Shown here piece by piece: positions 29,334 through 64,000 of a stretch of DNA of 64,000 bases. Made by a program: the position numbers and the translations under genes. A model generated the notes under the pieces. That model was not told the origin of the DNA and ran no database searches. It saw only the letters and a list, made by a program, of their open reading frames with translations. Every line of letters begins with the position of its first letter. Within the stretch, counting starts at the first letter, position 1. This DNA comes from Xiphophorus maculatus. Taxonomy: Eukaryota; Chordata; Actinopteri; Cyprinodontiformes; Poeciliidae. Location of the stretch: NCBI RefSeq assembly GCF_002775205.1, contig NC_036445.1, positions 26,888,953-26,952,952 on the forward strand, in the 5' to 3' direction.

Positions 29334-32300
29334 ATGGAAGAAGAGGAACACACAGACAGAAAGCAGCAGCTCGCCAGGCTTTATCAAAGGTTCAGCAACA
29401 TAAAAAAGTATTTCAATGAAGGTAACGAATGTGCTGCTGATGATTAACGAACAAGTCCCTTCGTCCTTCCTTTGTTTACAGTCTTTTTGACGTTGTAAAT
29501 ACCCCCTCTCCCTTTTCTTTCCTTTCCTTTCAGATGACACAGACAACATCAACCAGGTCATCGGCTCAAACTCGCCCGAATCTTGCCTCTCCTACCTGAA
29601 TGACCTGGAGAGGAAAAGGGATCCCGTGCTGGACCAGAACCACCTCACCAGGCTCATAGATTTTTATACCAGGGTGTTTTCCAATATGCCACTGGGGAAA
29701 CACTGTCATAATGAAAGCTACGCCAGGATGTTGGTCCGATTTGCCGAGCTGAAAGCGTGAGTAGATGTGATATTTCGAGCAGTTTGGAAAAAGCATCGTC
29801 ATTCCTTTGAGTTTTTTTTATCTTTTACTTTACTACCACTAATGGGAATATTTTCTTTCACTTGACAGTAATGCACAACTTAATGATGATCTTTCCAAAG
29901 AAATGCATTGAAATTTAGTGGTTGTTGACAAGCTGATAAAAATTTTAGACACTGTACCTGAAGCTCTAAATAATAAATTCTGGATAGAATTAACTTTCTT
30001 TCTTTTTTTTCTTTTTTTTTTTCTGTTTTCCTTCTGCTAGACTTCAAGATGTCAACGAGGCAGAGGCCAACTTCAACGTGGCGACAGCTCACAGCCAGAG
30101 CTTTGCGTTTGTCCACGTCGCGCACGCGCAGTTTGAGCACTCTCAAGGTACAGGACCGTTTTTTAGCTCCTTGTGGCATCTGGGTGAGTGTGTGTTAAGT
30201 GTTCACCTGGTGGGTGTGTTTCGTGTTGCGTCTCCAGGCAACACAAAAAGAGCCGTTCAGATACTACAGAACGCACTGGAGGTGGACGCCAAACCAAAAG
30301 AACAGCTGGTGGCTGCGCTGCAGAGCATGCAGGCCGGGAAAACGGCGATCTGTCTGGAGGACAAGGAGAACTTCCCATGTGAGAACTTGTTTTTTATATT
30401 CCAGTTTACAAGTCATTAATACTGGGGGCGCAGCAATGAATCGGCCCAGATTTTCTTCATTTTGGGTGTTCGGTCCATCTTGTCTGCCTCCATAGATTCA
30501 CATCTGTATGTGTGCAGTCAACAATAAATGCCCTACTTTTGCCAACTTAGCAACTTTTCAAACAAACAAAAAAAAAAAAACACGTTATCAGCCAAAACCT
30601 GAATAGGAAGGTCAGATTTGGGGGTTTTTTGTTGTTTTTTTTTAAGTTTGGCGATCGACCAGAAAACTGCAATCGGTGCACTTTAAAGCTGGACAGTATG
30701 TCTTGAAAATAAAATACAACATTTTTTCCCATACTTGTTCCAATCTCCACTTTATTTTTCATTTTATTTTCTTAAAGTACAAATGTTGGATGACAAAACA
30801 TTTTCAAAAAGTGGCGTTTATTTCCCTTCTGTGAGCTGGAGCTCTGAGTACTAGAGCAAGGCTATTAGAATTTTTGCTTAATTACAAGAACATTGTTGTG
30901 ATATTGACAGAATAAAGTCGCAATTTTACTAGAAAAACTGAACTATGGAAGCCCAACGAGTGCACTGATGAAAAAAATCCTGATTTAAAAAAAAAAAAAA
31001 ATTATTTACCCCCTCTCCCAAAAAAACCCCAACAACTTCAAAAACCAAAAATTTGCTTCATCTTCCAACCCCAGTGCATCCCTCATTAATACCTTTCTTA
31101 TCTTACTAAATTAGATTCATCTTATAGTTTTTTTGTGTTTACATATTTTCTTTGTGTTTCCAGCATTATCCAATACAACTGTGCAGGATTCTGTCAAAAG
31201 AGACTTGGAATTCCCGAAACTCGGCAGAATGTCAGATGGAACCGGCGACTTGCAGCTCTCCAGTCTTTTTAGCATGGAGTAAGAATGAAGTAGATTCTTA
31301 AATTTGCACGGTTTTGTCGAGGAGGAATACGCTTATTTATTTATTTCTTCAGGACGGAGCCACCGTCTGGGGCTTTGGACGATCCGTTTCCTGGCTGGAG
31401 GACGGGATCCCATCGGAAAAGAGGAGTTGGCTTGGTGGGCTTCAGCCTGCGGGATAAAATAAATGACTTAACGGTTCTTGGAATTTTCACCTTTTTTCCC
31501 CCCCCTTTTTTTTGTTGATAGCCGGGGAGAGTACCTGTAGTGCCATTTTCAATTCCAGAAAATGATGACGACATCCACAAGAAAGTCTCCAAATCAAGCA
31601 GTATGTCTGTTACTAGGGGTTTGTCCAGGTTTGTATTTTCCCCACTTCACTCTGATGCCCCTAATTTATTCCAAATGCAAACTAATTGTGTATTTTATCT
31701 GTTTTTTTGTTTTGTTTTTTTATTTTCTCTCAGACCAACGTCTGGTTCAAACGGGACCTCGGGATTTGGAGTGTCCTCCTCGAGGAAAAGCGTCGAAGGC
31801 CGAGACGTTGTCAGGGATCAGGTGAGAACAAAGAAACTTGCTGGCAAAGCTCTTTTGTGCTTCGGTGCGAAGATGATTTTTTCCAAAATCCATTTTGACG
31901 CACTAGAAGCCATCAGTTCTCAGTCCGGATCACGGCCAGTGGGAGGACCAGACAGACTCGACCGCATCGCTCCTCCAATCAAACGGCGCGAAAGGATCGT
32001 CCAAAATAGAAGGTAAAACCTGCTGAGTTGCGTTTTGACCTGCAGCGTGCTGAACGGAGTGATCAGTGGAGATTAAAGTTCTGTTGTCTTCTTCTTCTGC
32101 TTATTGTTATTATTTCCTCTGCAGATGTGACTTTTAATTTCGAACAAGTTGTCAACTCCAACTCTCCCGAGTCGTGTTGGACGTACCTGATGAGCCTGGA
32201 GAAGAGAGGAAACCCTCACACAAACGTCAGCCTGCTCAACAAGCTCAAAGACTGCTACTCCAAAGTCTTCAGCAGGCTGCCGATCAGACAGTACAGCAAA

Positions 32301-33852
32301 AACACCAGCTACGCCAGAATACTGGTCAGATATGCAGAACTGAAGGGGTGAGTCTTACTGAAGACATTCTGGGGGATCTCCAGATGTGAACGTATAAAGT
32401 GTCAGATTTTCATTATCTTTCTAAATATCAAAGATGCACCAATCTGATTGTTGTGCACAATCTCTTTTCTATATGGACTGCAGAGTTTTCGATTAAAGTT
32501 GTGCTTCTGAATCCAACATAAGGAGATAATCTAAAATGCACTGAAAAAAGTATTCACAACCTTTTCACAGTATTGCTGGTTAAAGCCGCAGTGTGTTTAA
32601 TTAAGGCTGTATGGTAGATGAAGTGACCTGTGGTTACCTTGATTCTATACTTTTGACTCGGTTGAAGTCTTTTGATAAATTTAGATAAAGTTCTTGGATG
32701 CTAAATAACACAAACTCTTATCTTTTCTTTATTTCAAATCAGTTTTCTGCCTTTTTTGTTTCTTTCCTCCATTTGGTTTTTCTCTGATTCTTTGCTGCTT
32801 TCTCTCTTTCTTTTTTTTTTTGCTTTGTTTTACCTTTCTTTCTTGGTTTCTTTATTTGGATCTTTGTTTTCTGCCTTTTTTTCTTTTGCTTCTGTCTTTG
32901 TTTAATTTTTTCCTCTGGTTTCTGTTTCGATTTTCTTTCCTTTTCTTGTTGCTTTGTTTTCGTTTTTTGCTTTGTTTCTGTCTTTTTTTTTTCTTCCGTT
33001 GTATTTGTTTCTTTTCCTTTTCCATTTTGTTTCTTTCTATTTCTCTCTCATTTTTTCTGTCATTTCTTTATAATTTATTCTTTCTTTTTTTTTCCAACAG
33101 GGGATTCTGGTCTGTTTCTATCGCTACCTAGCAGCTGTCTGCTGAATATCACCATTTGTTTTCCACTCTGTAGGATTGAAGATCCAGATGAGGCTCAGGA
33201 TCACTTCATAGTCGCGAGATCCAACTGCAAAGGCTTTGCGTTTGTCCACATTGCACATGCCCAGTTTGAGGTTTCTCAAGGTAATCTTGTGTTTTTATTT
33301 GTGGCTGTACTAAAATAACTGGAAGTGGCAAAGCAAATAAAAACGTTTAGAATCTCGAGATTTCATGTTGTGAAATGAGTTCTTCGTTCTCTTCATGTTT
33401 GACCAGGTTACCAAGGTGATTTTGTGGATTTTTTTACATTTTTTAATTTTTTTTATTTTTTAGGTAACCTGGTCAAAGCAACTTCAATTCTGCACAAAGC
33501 TCTGGCATTAAATGCCAAACCGGCAGAGCTTCTGGAGACGGCCATGCGGAACCTAACATCGGGAGAGAAACAGCTGGTTCCCCCCATGGAGGACGACCCG
33601 CCCATGGGTAGGGATCAGTCTGAAGCGGAGTGCTGCTGCTGCTTTTTCTGTTTCTGTCTGCTGAATCTGTAAACGTCCGTGTAGCAGGAAGCGGGCCCCC
33701 CTCTGGCGGGAAGCAGAAGCTGCAGCTTCCGGCTCGGATCCCTGTGAGCCAGTCGGTGGAACGGAATAAACCTGCCAGCAAAGAGCTGGATGCAGAGTGG
33801 AAAATTCCCAGTCTGCTCTCCCGGCAAGTTTCTCCTGAGGTATTAGCAATAT

Positions 33853-33908
<56 letters not shown>

Positions 33909-36900
33909 GTATTTTCCCTCTCTAGATGCACCGATTCATTTACTTATTTTTTTTCACTGCCAATGCATATATCTGAGGTTTAGTATTGGCCAATAACGAT
34001 CCGATATAGAATAACTTGTTTCGAAATGTTTCTTTTTTTTTTTTTTTTTTAAACAGACATAAATGTTCAGAATTACAAATTTAGTTGATAACTGCACCAG
34101 TACAGCACATTGAAATTCTTGGTCAAACTTGTGAAAAGCAACACAACTTTAATTTGTTCAGTCCGTGCAATTAGGAGTAAAACAGCCAACGTAAAATAAA
34201 TAATAATAAAGCGTGACGTCACTCAGAACACGTAGCATAGAATTGAATCAATAGATCTGCTCTTATTGATCCGTCAACATTGTCACAATGAATTGCTTTC
34301 AATATCGGGGTTGATACAGATATTGATATCGGATCGGTGCATCTCTACTGTTAAGTCATTTTATGCTTCACTTCATTTGCTCCTAAGGATAAACGGACCA
34401 CGCCTCCCGACCTCAGACCCGTTCCCCGTCTGGTGGAGTCTTACCCCACTCCCTCCATCCAGCTTCCGTCCAAACTGAACCCACAAGCCGCCTATCAGAC
34501 GCCCAACGGCTACAGGAACCCACGTCCCAGTAGGTAGGTGCTTAATTCGCTCACATCCAAGATCTGGATCGTTTCAGCCTCTTAAACGTTTAAAGAAGTT
34601 GGTCTGGTTGTGTATTTTCCGCCCTTGAATGAACGATTTTCACAAGTCGTTTCTCCTCAGCTTCATCACTCCTGTCGTAAAGAGAGGCCCCGAGGCGGCG
34701 TCCTCTGCAGCAGCGCCTCACAGAGCCGGAGCCGCGCAGCAGGCCTGCACGCCTCTGAGCCACACAGCTGGTTTCCACACTCCACAGGTGCAGCACTGTT
34801 ACCGCCCGGTTACAGATGTTTCAACCTGTTCACTGGATTTTGTTATTTACCTCTCAGCCGAAATCCCTTGCAAATAAAACAGAAATCTCATTGGAACTTA
34901 TTTGTTTTTCAATGAAGGTCTCCTTCAGTTCTTTTTCAAACGAATCCATCACAATAAAGGGGAAGCAGTTCTTCATCCTCAAGATGATTGGACGAGGCGG
35001 CTCCAGCAAGGTAAAGCATCACGGACGGCAACAAAAAACACAAACCACTTCAAACCAAAGTTGTTCTGTTCTGACTCGGGGTGCGCCGATAAATCAGCTT
35101 TAACTATCGGCACAAAGATCTGAAAATCAGCTTTTGGTCTACCATGAGAGAGAGCTGACTGACCTGCCCACCAGCTCACATCTGAACGTGTGCCGTTAAC
35201 AATAGCCTCCCCACTGTTGAAAACATGGTGACTGTCGCTATATTTGGAGACTTTTCAGACCAAAAAAATTGCTATCGGCAAAAATCGGAATCAGCAGGTC
35301 AACAGGATATCAGTGCATCCTTATAAAGTATTACATCTGAATATCTAAAATTAAGGCCTTAAAATGCGCTAGATTATATTTTTTAAAGAAAAATTTATTT
35401 GGCCGTTAATACGTCAATTGAAACTTTTGAATTTATTCGTGGATTTTCTATGTAGTTTTTTTTTTTTCCCTCAAGATTTTTCAGTCAAGCAACATTTTTA
35501 ATTGCGCGCAGACATCTTTATTGCATCCCGTGACTTGAGGCGGTTACGCTAGCTTGCTGCTAATGTAGCCTTGCTAGCTAGCTAACTTTTTTTTTGCTAA
35601 TTTATCATCAGTGGCTCACTTCTGTTGCCAATCCATGCAATGCTCCGTTCATCCTGTCACTATGCAGGCTAAGCCACTAAACAGACCTCAGAATTGTCAG
35701 TTTTGATCCACTGAGTGGCTAAAGCTCCCCTGAAAACCAACAGCTAATACTACTTGCTCTGACCTAAGAGCAGCGTTTTGAGAGACATAAACTCCGAAGC
35801 TGGACGTTTAATGGATTTTAAGCATGATGATCGAGCAGCGGTTTGACATACTTTATTTCATGAACGTTGTTTCTATAGAGGGAAATATAGCTGAGAAAAG
35901 GAATAGAACATGGCAGCAGAAGAGAACAGAAAGCCACAGATTCAGCAAATTGGGAGAAAAGATGGAAAAAAGAAAACGATGTCTAATAATTTTCCTATTG
36001 TGTATGTGTTGCGATACATGTCTTAAATTTAGTTGACGATGGACTTAAAAGCCTCACATTTACATTGATGAAACCTGTTTTTAAAGATTGCAGCAAAAAA
36101 AAAAAAAACTTCAGTTGGTGCACTCCGAACTCTTGTTGTTTTTGTTTTTCTTTTCTGCAGGTCTATCAGGTCCTCGATCACAAAAAGCAGCTGTTTGCAG
36201 TGAAATATGTGAACCTGGAGGAGGCTGACGCTCAAACGATAGAAAGTTACAAAAATGAAATTGAGCATCTGAACCACTTGCAGCAGTACAGCGACCAAAT
36301 CATAAAGCTTTACGACTAGTGAGTATATGACTAGTCTAGAGTCGGTGTGTTGATGATGAATCGCAGTGGAGTGTGTGGTCAAATCCAACCACCTTTAGCT
36401 TGTTTGGCAGAGATTTTGATGGTTCCACTTTTTTTTGTTTTTTTGCAGTGAAATAACCAACAGCTATATCTACATGCTGATGGAGTGCGGCAACTTGGAT
36501 CTGAACACCTGGTTGCGAAACCGCAAAACCGTCAACCCGCTTGAGAGGAAGTTCTACTGGAAGAACATGCTGGAGGCCGTCCACGCCATCCACAAGCACG
36601 GTTCTCGTCGTCTCCAACTGCTTGTCATATTTTCTGTGTTGTTCGTTATAAATGAGTAATTGTGACGTTTTCATGTTCGCTCTCTGCAGGCATCGTCCAC
36701 AGCGACCTGAAGCCGGCAAATTTTGTCATAGTCAACGCGTCGCTGAAGCTGATCGACTTCGGCATCGCGAACAGAATCCAGCCCGACGTGACGAGCATTA
36801 TGAAAGACTCTCAGGTAGGTCATATTTATTTTAGGTTCGGTTTTAATTGAGTTGTCTGATTATTTATGGTTTATGTAGTTTTTAGTTTTTTAAAAAATGT

Positions 36901-38256
36901 GTGTTCTAATCACACAGGTTGGAACGCTGAACTATATGCCTCCTGAGGCCATCAAGGATACATCATCTCAGCCAGGACAGGCGCGATCCAAGGTACTCAT
37001 CTAAACCTGGCTGATTTAACTTGTGAAATAAGACTCGTATAAAGAATCTCAATATAATAATAATTATAATAATAATGGTGTTGTACAGATCAGCCCTAAA
37101 GGAGACGTTTGGTCCCTTGGATGCATCCTCTACTGTATGACCTATGGGAAGACTCCGTTCCAGAGCATCACAAACCAAATCGCCAAGCTGCAGGCCATCA
37201 TCGATCCGTCTCATAAGATCGAGTTTCCCGACATCGCAGAGAAAGATTTGCTGGATGTTTTGAAAGTGAGGCTTTTTTTTTTTTTATTTATTTTTTTGGT
37301 ATGCAATGAATTTCGTTTACCTGTTTGAATAATTGTAAAGCTTGAAATCACGTTAAACTGCTTAGAAAACATCTGACTGAGGTTGGGATTGGTGGCATTC
37401 ATGATTTATAATTTATAAGGTAGGTAAGTAAACTTTATGTACATATAGAGGTCCGAAACTAGATATGCTTTAAAATGAATAACAAAGCTTGTCGCTCAGA
37501 GCACAAAGAATAGAATTAGGCTGGATAGATCTGCCCTTCGGTTTGGGCACATTGTCACCGACACATAATCCAAAAATTGCTTTAATATCGGGACCGATAC
37601 AGACATTAATATCGGATCGGTGTGTCTCTAATTATTAATTAAGCTTAGATGGTCATTTATGGGAGTTTATCACATTTTCACAAAACCTTAAATGAAAATA
37701 TCTCCACGTGTATCTTCTTGTTTCTTACTTCAAATGGAGGAGGCACTGGAATAAAGGGAATTCTAGTTCTCTCTCTGCCACGTCTGTTCACAAGTCCCAA
37801 GCTAGCAGGTTAAGTTTGTGATGCCACGTTTTCTCTCGTTTCATCAGAGGTGCTTGGTGCGAAACCCAAGAGAGAGAATCTCCATTGCAGAGCTGCTGGA
37901 GCATCAATACCTCCAGCTGAAACCACAATCCTCTCCTGAACCAGGTACGCAAGAGCCAAATAAGCCCTCTGGGTGCTCAGCGATCAACTTCTGAAGCTAA
38001 ACTGTGATTCGTTTTGTTCCGTCAGAGCGTCCTTCTGACAAGGACCTGAAGAGGATTCTAACTGACCTGGCAGCCCTCCAGTCTCCAAACAGTATCGTCC
38101 GAGCAGCTAATGTAGGACTTTTAGTGTGTGTGTAACATCTTCTTGATCACGCCTGACATTAAACACTAACTTTATTGTTTCTTACAGAATTTGGCTAAAA
38201 TGTGCAGCAGCGGCAGGAAGCTGGATGTCACAGAATGCGCAAAGTCGTCGTCCTAA
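29334..38256 (+). CDS. TTK: TTK / MPS1 dual-specificity kinase with two TPR modules
   Basis: TTK is the kinetochore kinase that starts spindle-assembly-checkpoint signalling. The exons are 29334-29421, 29534-29756, 30041-30147, 30238-30378, 31164-31278, 31353-31434, 31522-31628, 31734-31821, 31907-32012, 32125-32347, 33174-33280, 33464-33607, 33688-33839, 34388-34533, 34661-34787, 34858-35010, 36161-36318, 36449-36600, 36690-36814, 36918-36992, 37089-37265, 37848-37944, 38026-38111 and 38188-38256. All introns are GT/AG and phases close to 1015 aa. TPR1 is residues 30-186 and TPR2 is 353-510. The kinase starts near residue 690: IGRGGSSK at 696-703, Lys718 in [13 protein letters not shown] with Asp812, and Asp829 of DFG. 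Human TTK is 857 aa (from memory); the surplus equals one TPR module. Exon 18 of the list (36449-36600) ends at a weak donor (CACG|GTTCTC). Confidence 0.95.
29534..30378 (+). other. TTK: TTK TPR module 1 (three exons)
   Basis: Exons of 223, 107 and 141 bp encode a TPR-like helical repeat domain with [40 protein letters not shown] and [16 protein letters not shown]. The cassette enters and leaves in phase 1. It occupies the position where TTK of other vertebrates has its only TPR domain, used for kinetochore targeting. The intron between the second and third exons is only 90 bp. Confidence 0.9.
32700..33100 (+). repeat. T/C-rich low-complexity tract in TTK intron
   Basis: About 400 nt of TTTCTTT-type sequence lie between the first and second exons of TPR module 2. 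The open frame inside it encodes only phenylalanine, leucine and serine and is not a gene. Confidence 0.8.
33398..33477 (+). repeat. Inverted repeat enclosing the 3' splice site of TTK exon 33464-33607
   Basis: Arms 33398-33412 (tttgaccaggttacc) and 33463-33477 (ggtaacctggtcaaa) are perfectly complementary over 15 bp with a 50-nt T-rich loop. The right arm starts at the last base of the acceptor AG and covers the first 14 exon bases. The polypyrimidine tract lies in the loop. Confidence 0.9.
33860..33892. repeat. (AT)n microsatellite in TTK intron
   Basis: Pure AT run immediately downstream of the exon ending at 33839. Confidence 0.95.
33921..34347. mobile_element. MITE with 'gatgcaccgat' ends
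   Basis: The left end tagatgcaccgat and the right end atcggtgcatctcta are inverted. Internal blocks such as 'ccgatatagaata' and 'gatattgatatcggatcg' recur in related fragments at 35080-35330, 37440-37635, 45180-45295 and 59435-59530. It lies in a TTK intron and is non-coding. The superfamily is probably hAT. Confidence 0.6.
35080..35330. mobile_element. Fragment related to the 'gatgcaccgat' repeat class
   Basis: It begins 'ggggtgcgccgataaatcag' and ends 'aaaaatcggaatcagcaggt', with 'atcagtgcatcc' beyond. It lies in the TTK intron before the exon carrying the catalytic lysine. Confidence 0.4.
37440..37635. mobile_element. Second copy of the 'gatgcaccgat' MITE
   Basis: It shares 'gctggatagatctgccctt'-type, 'attgctttaatatcggg' and 'atatcggatcggtgtgtctc' blocks with 33921-34347. 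It lies in a TTK intron, and its left end is degraded. Confidence 0.5.

Positions 38257-39400: not shown

Positions 39401-64000
<24,600 letters not shown>

Follow-up and report, generated by a model that had tools for sequence, protein, structure and literature searches.

The TTK/MPS1 gene of Xiphophorus maculatus encodes two TTK-type TPR domains in its predicted product

The spindle checkpoint begins when TTK (MPS1) is recruited to unattached kinetochores. In human cells, contributions to kinetochore localisation come from the N-terminal extension (NTE), from the TPR domain, and from the segment following the TPR, and this localisation increases when dimerisation of the N-terminal 300 residues is induced, according to the part of PMC7493027 cited here. 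The role of the TPR itself is disputed between restraint of the NTE and direct binding of Ndc80 (PMC6119859 and PMC7493027, in the parts cited): in one account the TPR restrains the NTE and inactive MPS1 relies more on the middle region (PMC6119859, in part), while direct binding was contested by another group, which did not detect TPR–Ndc80 binding, as stated in the cited passages of PMC7493027. Its role in self-association is disputed as well (PMC6119859, in part), and MPS1 was described to dimerise mainly via a C-terminal fragment (PMC7493027, in part). The preliminary description of the locus studied here assumed that the TPR controls both docking and self-association. The middle region (MR) of MPS1 binds the Ndc80–Nuf2 head; in vertebrates this segment contains QSCPFGR, the arginine of which is invariant, and other forms of this Ndc80 "hub" motif are a yeast motif that ends with LGPAxR and TLPQR in human Aurora B (PMC11847324, in part).

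The analysed window, a stretch of 64,000 nucleotides, carries an intact TTK/MPS1 gene on the + strand at 29334–38256. The exons were spliced by consensus sites and homology in one genome of a single species, which resulted in a model of 24 coding exons with GT...AG borders at 23/23 introns and a sole stop codon at the end. The predicted protein consists of 996 aa, instead of the 1015 aa calculated previously. The coding parts are as follows.

29334–29421, + strand: TTK coding exon 1, N-terminal extension, aa 1–29 (spliced model)
29534–29756, + strand: module 1 (TPR1) exon A, 223 bp, phase 1 to 2 (model, homology, alignment of the two modules)
30041–30147, + strand: module 1 exon B, 107 bp (model, DNA repeat search, alignment of the two modules)
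30238–30378, + strand: module 1 exon C, 141 bp, ending in phase 1; module 1 corresponds to aa 30–186 (model, alignment)
31164–31278, + strand: linker exon 5 (spliced model)
31353–31434, + strand: linker exon 6; its final codon, 31432–31434, supplies the leucine of LPGRVPV, the first MR-like motif
31522–31628, + strand: linker exon 7; PGRVPV of the first MR-like motif is encoded by 31522–31539 (motif after PMC11847324, in part)
31734–31821, + strand: linker exon 8 (spliced model)
31907–32012, + strand: linker exon 9, with a weak acceptor, joining linker exons 5–8 in frame to module 2
32125–32347, + strand: module 2 (TPR2) exon A, 223 bp, phase 1 to 2 (model, homology, alignment)
33174–33280, + strand: module 2 exon B, 107 bp (model, DNA repeat search, alignment)
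33464–33607, + strand: module 2 exon C, 144 bp, ending in phase 1; module 2 corresponds to aa 353–511 (model, alignment)
33685–33839, + strand: exon 13, with a NAGNAG acceptor; the second MR-like motif, LPARIPV (aa 525–531), is encoded by 33726–33746
34388–38256, + strand: exons 14–24, the remaining linker, kinase domain, C-tail, and stop (model, Pfam, kinase homology)

The kinase part matched human TTK with an E value of 1e-138 (query residues 1–277/278), and the Pfam Pkinase domain was located at aa 674–935 of the predicted protein. Judged from this homology, the encoded kinase is an intact TTK kinase. In the gene lying downstream (first ATG at 39401), two joined pieces starting from about 40216 and 41376 matched BCKDHB with an E value of 7.2e-27, the matching chains being named branched-chain alpha-keto acid dehydrogenase beta subunit; BCKDHB is also the neighbour of human TTK. 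Elsewhere in the window, open frames at 1634–1879 and 43501–44028, both on the − strand, resemble Tc1/mariner-type transposase fragments by eye. The N-terminal extension (29334–29533) is presumably about 20 residues shorter than that of the human protein. An autoinhibitory stretch has been described at positions 40–49 (PMC5863767, in part), and the shorter NTE of the fish differs near there.

Exons 2–4 (223/107/141 bp) and exons 10–12 (223/107/144 bp) proved to be two versions of the same cassette. Their phases run 1, 2, 1 and end at 1 in both, that is, the flanking introns share the same phase (1) and the internal phases are equal, which is the pattern of a phase-symmetric exon-cassette duplication. 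The coordinates, sizes, phase-1 borders, and reading frame proposed earlier for these exons were all reproduced by the spliced model, and the identity of about 50% estimated by hand (69/137) was close to that obtained by alignment of the encoded modules (70/145 identical and 104/145 similar residues, no gap, E 4e-50). The global alignment score was 351, while the highest score in 1000 shuffles was 11. At the DNA level, a repeat search paired the two versions of exon B over 127 nt at 70% and, over 47 nt at 81%, the end of exon A. A recent duplicate in the assembly was ruled out by the 61% nucleotide identity of the modules over 435 bases. That the second module is an artefact of the gene model, derived from another transcript or from a duplication in the assembly, seems very improbable, as it lies on the same strand with correct phases and acceptable splice sites at exons 10–12, and the TTK kinase is intact downstream.

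When each module was compared alone with solved structures, the best match was the human TTK TPR (4h7x, 4b94) in both cases. Module 1 aligned to 4h7x with an E value of 1.4e-29 (query 11–155/157) and module 2 with 1.1e-38 (query 11–151/159), while the runner-up structures were mostly other helical-repeat proteins, the best of which reached 5e-07 for module 1 and 0.002 for module 2. As the alignments with the human TTK TPR extend over the length of each module, the two TTK-type TPR modules of the preliminary description were confirmed, and these matches, together with that of the kinase, also bear out the assignment of the gene as TTK. On the evidence of these alignments, the gene encodes two complete TTK-type TPR domains, whereas human TTK has one, located between the NTE and the middle region. 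Neither module alone reached the Pfam cut-off for any family and no TPR-type Pfam family was found above the cut-off in the whole predicted protein, thus automatic domain annotation may miss both.

The relation of the modules to each other and to the human TPR was examined over 140 common columns, where 65 identities were counted between modules 1 and 2, 61 between module 1 and human, and 70 between module 2 and human. These nearly equal distances suggest an old split, as the preliminary description had assumed, and they are compatible with a duplication that took place either before or after the fish–tetrapod split. Module 2 obtained a higher bit score against the human TTK TPR than module 1 (136 vs. 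106), and 26 residues were common to human and module 2 only, compared with 17 for module 1, a difference that is not significant (p 0.22). A greater likeness of module 2 to the mammalian TPR, which had been noted earlier for the middle exon, held for that exon, where 24/36 residues of module 2 and 17/36 of module 1 were identical to human, but not for the first exon (29/64 in both) and hardly for the third (17/40 vs. 15/40). The human residues found in one module only were distributed accordingly (module 2 vs. module 1: 8/8 in the first, 9/2 in the middle, and 9/7 in the third exon). Both modules are one residue longer than the human domain at one place, and the stretch ARxNCK, which is common to human and module 2, has been lost in module 1. 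Zebrafish Ttk is roughly 980 aa long, which would fit a second module present throughout teleosts and is taken here as a lead only. In the prokaryote genome and viral contig collections, 0 confirmed relatives of the module alignments were found, and the number was likewise 0 for one kinase exon in the viral contigs.

Several features of the two modules point to coding constraint. Between them, dN was 0.39 and dS 2.23 (NG86, 145 codons), a pairwise ratio that represents an average and is compatible with a recent relaxation in one module, and the differences were unevenly distributed among the codon positions (52/40/79, p 0.0009). Positions that are hydrophobic in human remained hydrophobic in 47/63 cases in module 1 and 49/63 in module 2, while polar positions of human were hydrophobic in 14/77 and 9/77 cases, respectively. 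GC3 was 0.68 and 0.61 in the modules and 0.69 in the kinase. The low dN relative to dS and the preserved hydrophobic core argue for constraint, and, averaged over their history, both modules have the appearance of functional coding exons. These data also bear on the idea that the two modules are in one protein, one of them being a structural spacer or a slowly decaying remnant without a partner of its own, and that TTK functions with a single TPR, like the human protein. The lack of the ARxNCK stretch in module 1 would suit this explanation, which we nevertheless find rather improbable considering the average purifying selection and the preserved core in both modules, and also because an unconstrained stretch of 145 codons stayed open in only 5/5000 simulations at 1.1 substitutions per site, that is, at roughly half the dS of 2.2 and with insertions and deletions left out of the simulations. 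At 0.5 and 0.3 substitutions per site, 45/5000 and 135/5000 stretches were open, respectively.

Phase 1 is found at the end of exons 1, 4, 9, and 12 and at the start of exons 2, 5, 10, and 13; consequently, skipping of module 1, of module 2, or of the linker that separates them would cause no frameshift, and one-TPR isoforms are possible. Based on intron phase, we infer that both modules are joined in one mRNA. According to a score computed within the gene, the acceptor of exon 9 was the weakest of the 23 acceptors, and the weakest donor was donor 18 (GTTCTC), located in the conserved kinase. The NAGNAG acceptor of exon 13, just after module 2, can be used at 33685 or 33688, giving two forms one residue apart. 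The cassettes might also be alternative, with transcripts carrying one TPR or the other, or they might distinguish tissue- or meiosis-specific isoforms. Although the 1-1 symmetry of both cassettes (471 and 474 bp long), the frame-preserving nature of the joins 1-5, 1-10, 4-10, and 9-13, and the weak acceptor before exon 9 would permit such an arrangement, we regard it as unlikely: mutually exclusive exons are usually adjacent, unlike these cassettes, which are separated by five linker exons, and the splice sites of exons 10–12 were ordinary to good by the same within-gene score.

In the region of the exon 9 acceptor (31887–31940), an alternative AG, which is also frame-preserving, was noticed at 31938–31939. 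Intron 3 (30148–30237, 90 nt), located inside module 1, has no in-frame stop and is part of an open frame spanning 29994–30416; if retained, it would insert 30 residues into TPR1 with no frameshift.

Each module is followed by one occurrence of the pattern LP[GA]R[VI]PV, namely LPGRVPV 65 residues after module 1 and LPARIPV 13 residues after module 2, and basic residues are found just upstream of both. At the level of motifs, these sequences resemble the Ndc80-binding motif of MPS1. Using patterns that were written after seeing the sequence, the second motif being 7 residues long, shuffling of the second linker produced LP[GA]R[VI]PV in 2/200,000 cases, LPxR[VIL]P[VIL] in 48/200,000, and PxR[VIL]P[VIL] in 928/200,000, while in 100,000 further shuffles evaluated with similarly post hoc patterns [GA]R[VIL]P[VIL] appeared in 0.5%, LPxR[VIL] in 1.5%, and xR[VIL]P[VIL] in 3.2%. 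The two linkers aligned no better than expected by chance (670/2000 shuffles scored as high), and a wider duplicated linker block was rejected on this ground. A phase-0 intron (31434/31522) splits the first motif, while the second is unsplit. With linkers that are otherwise unalignable and an intron in the first motif only, a duplicated unit of TPR plus MR is plausible rather than demonstrated. In the preliminary description, module 2 was placed inside the linker, which is one of two readings, as the motif after each module could also stem from a tandem duplication that took in the TPR and the linker. We tentatively propose as a possibility that the duplicated unit was a TPR together with an Ndc80-binding motif, by which one chain might be bivalent for Ndc80 heads and NTE restraint might be separated from Ndc80 binding.

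Considering these results, the explanation we favour, with modest confidence, is a single TTK polypeptide with two TPR domains derived from an old in-gene duplication, which would provide bivalent or divided kinetochore docking. An old duplication of DNA within the gene, through phase-1 introns, would have created the second complete TPR, and if the main mRNA contains both sets of exons, the parts would follow each other in one polypeptide in the order NTE-TPR1-MR1-TPR2-MR2-kinase-C-tail. Each TPR would be paired with a putative Ndc80-head-binding motif, thus one TTK molecule may touch two Ndc80 heads, and this bivalent docking in cis could partially substitute for dimerisation. Alternatively, the two jobs proposed for the human domain may have been divided, with restraint of the NTE left to the adjacent TPR1 and Ndc80 binding to TPR2-MR2; the loss from module 1 of ARxNCK, which is present in human and module 2, fits such unequal jobs.

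No report of two TPRs in TTK was found among the literature matches listed, as judged from titles and abstract openings. In a naturally occurring protein whose two TPRs have diverged and lie beside different partner regions, both disputed roles of the domain would be separately testable. With two docking domains, this TTK may grip chromosomes differently from the human protein, and if the second module is common to teleosts, work on TTK and the checkpoint in zebrafish and medaka should be read with a two-TPR docking architecture in mind.

Among the known systems, human TTK/MPS1 (TPR structures 4h7x, 4h7y, 4b94) has the same TTK-type TPR and kinase, and the likeness of the NTE and C-tail was judged against the human sequence. 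The order of the parts, NTE-TPR-MR-kinase, is also the same (PMC6119859, in part). The difference lies in their number, as human TTK has one TPR, while the fish gene has two, plus two MR-like motifs. The TPR domains of BUB1/BUBR1 are related in structure and have a role in the spindle assembly checkpoint (SAC; PMC6119859, in part), and duplication and fission have been described for BUBR1 in teleosts (PMC5204127, in part). The match of module 2 to Mad3_BUB1_I was sub-threshold (20.5 bits vs. the cut-off of 31.4), for both modules the TTK TPR was by far the best match among the solved structures, and no BUB1/BUBR1 chain occurred among the distinct sequences listed at E ≤1 (16 for module 1 and 5 for module 2). 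A BUB1-type origin of module 2 is thus unsupported, the solved-structure matches favouring the TTK TPR. In yeast Ipl1/Aurora, two short Ndc80-hub motifs are present in one kinase and avidity has been suggested (PMC11847324, in part); however, Ipl1/Aurora carries short motifs only, whereas in the fish TTK a whole TPR domain precedes each of the motif-like sequences.
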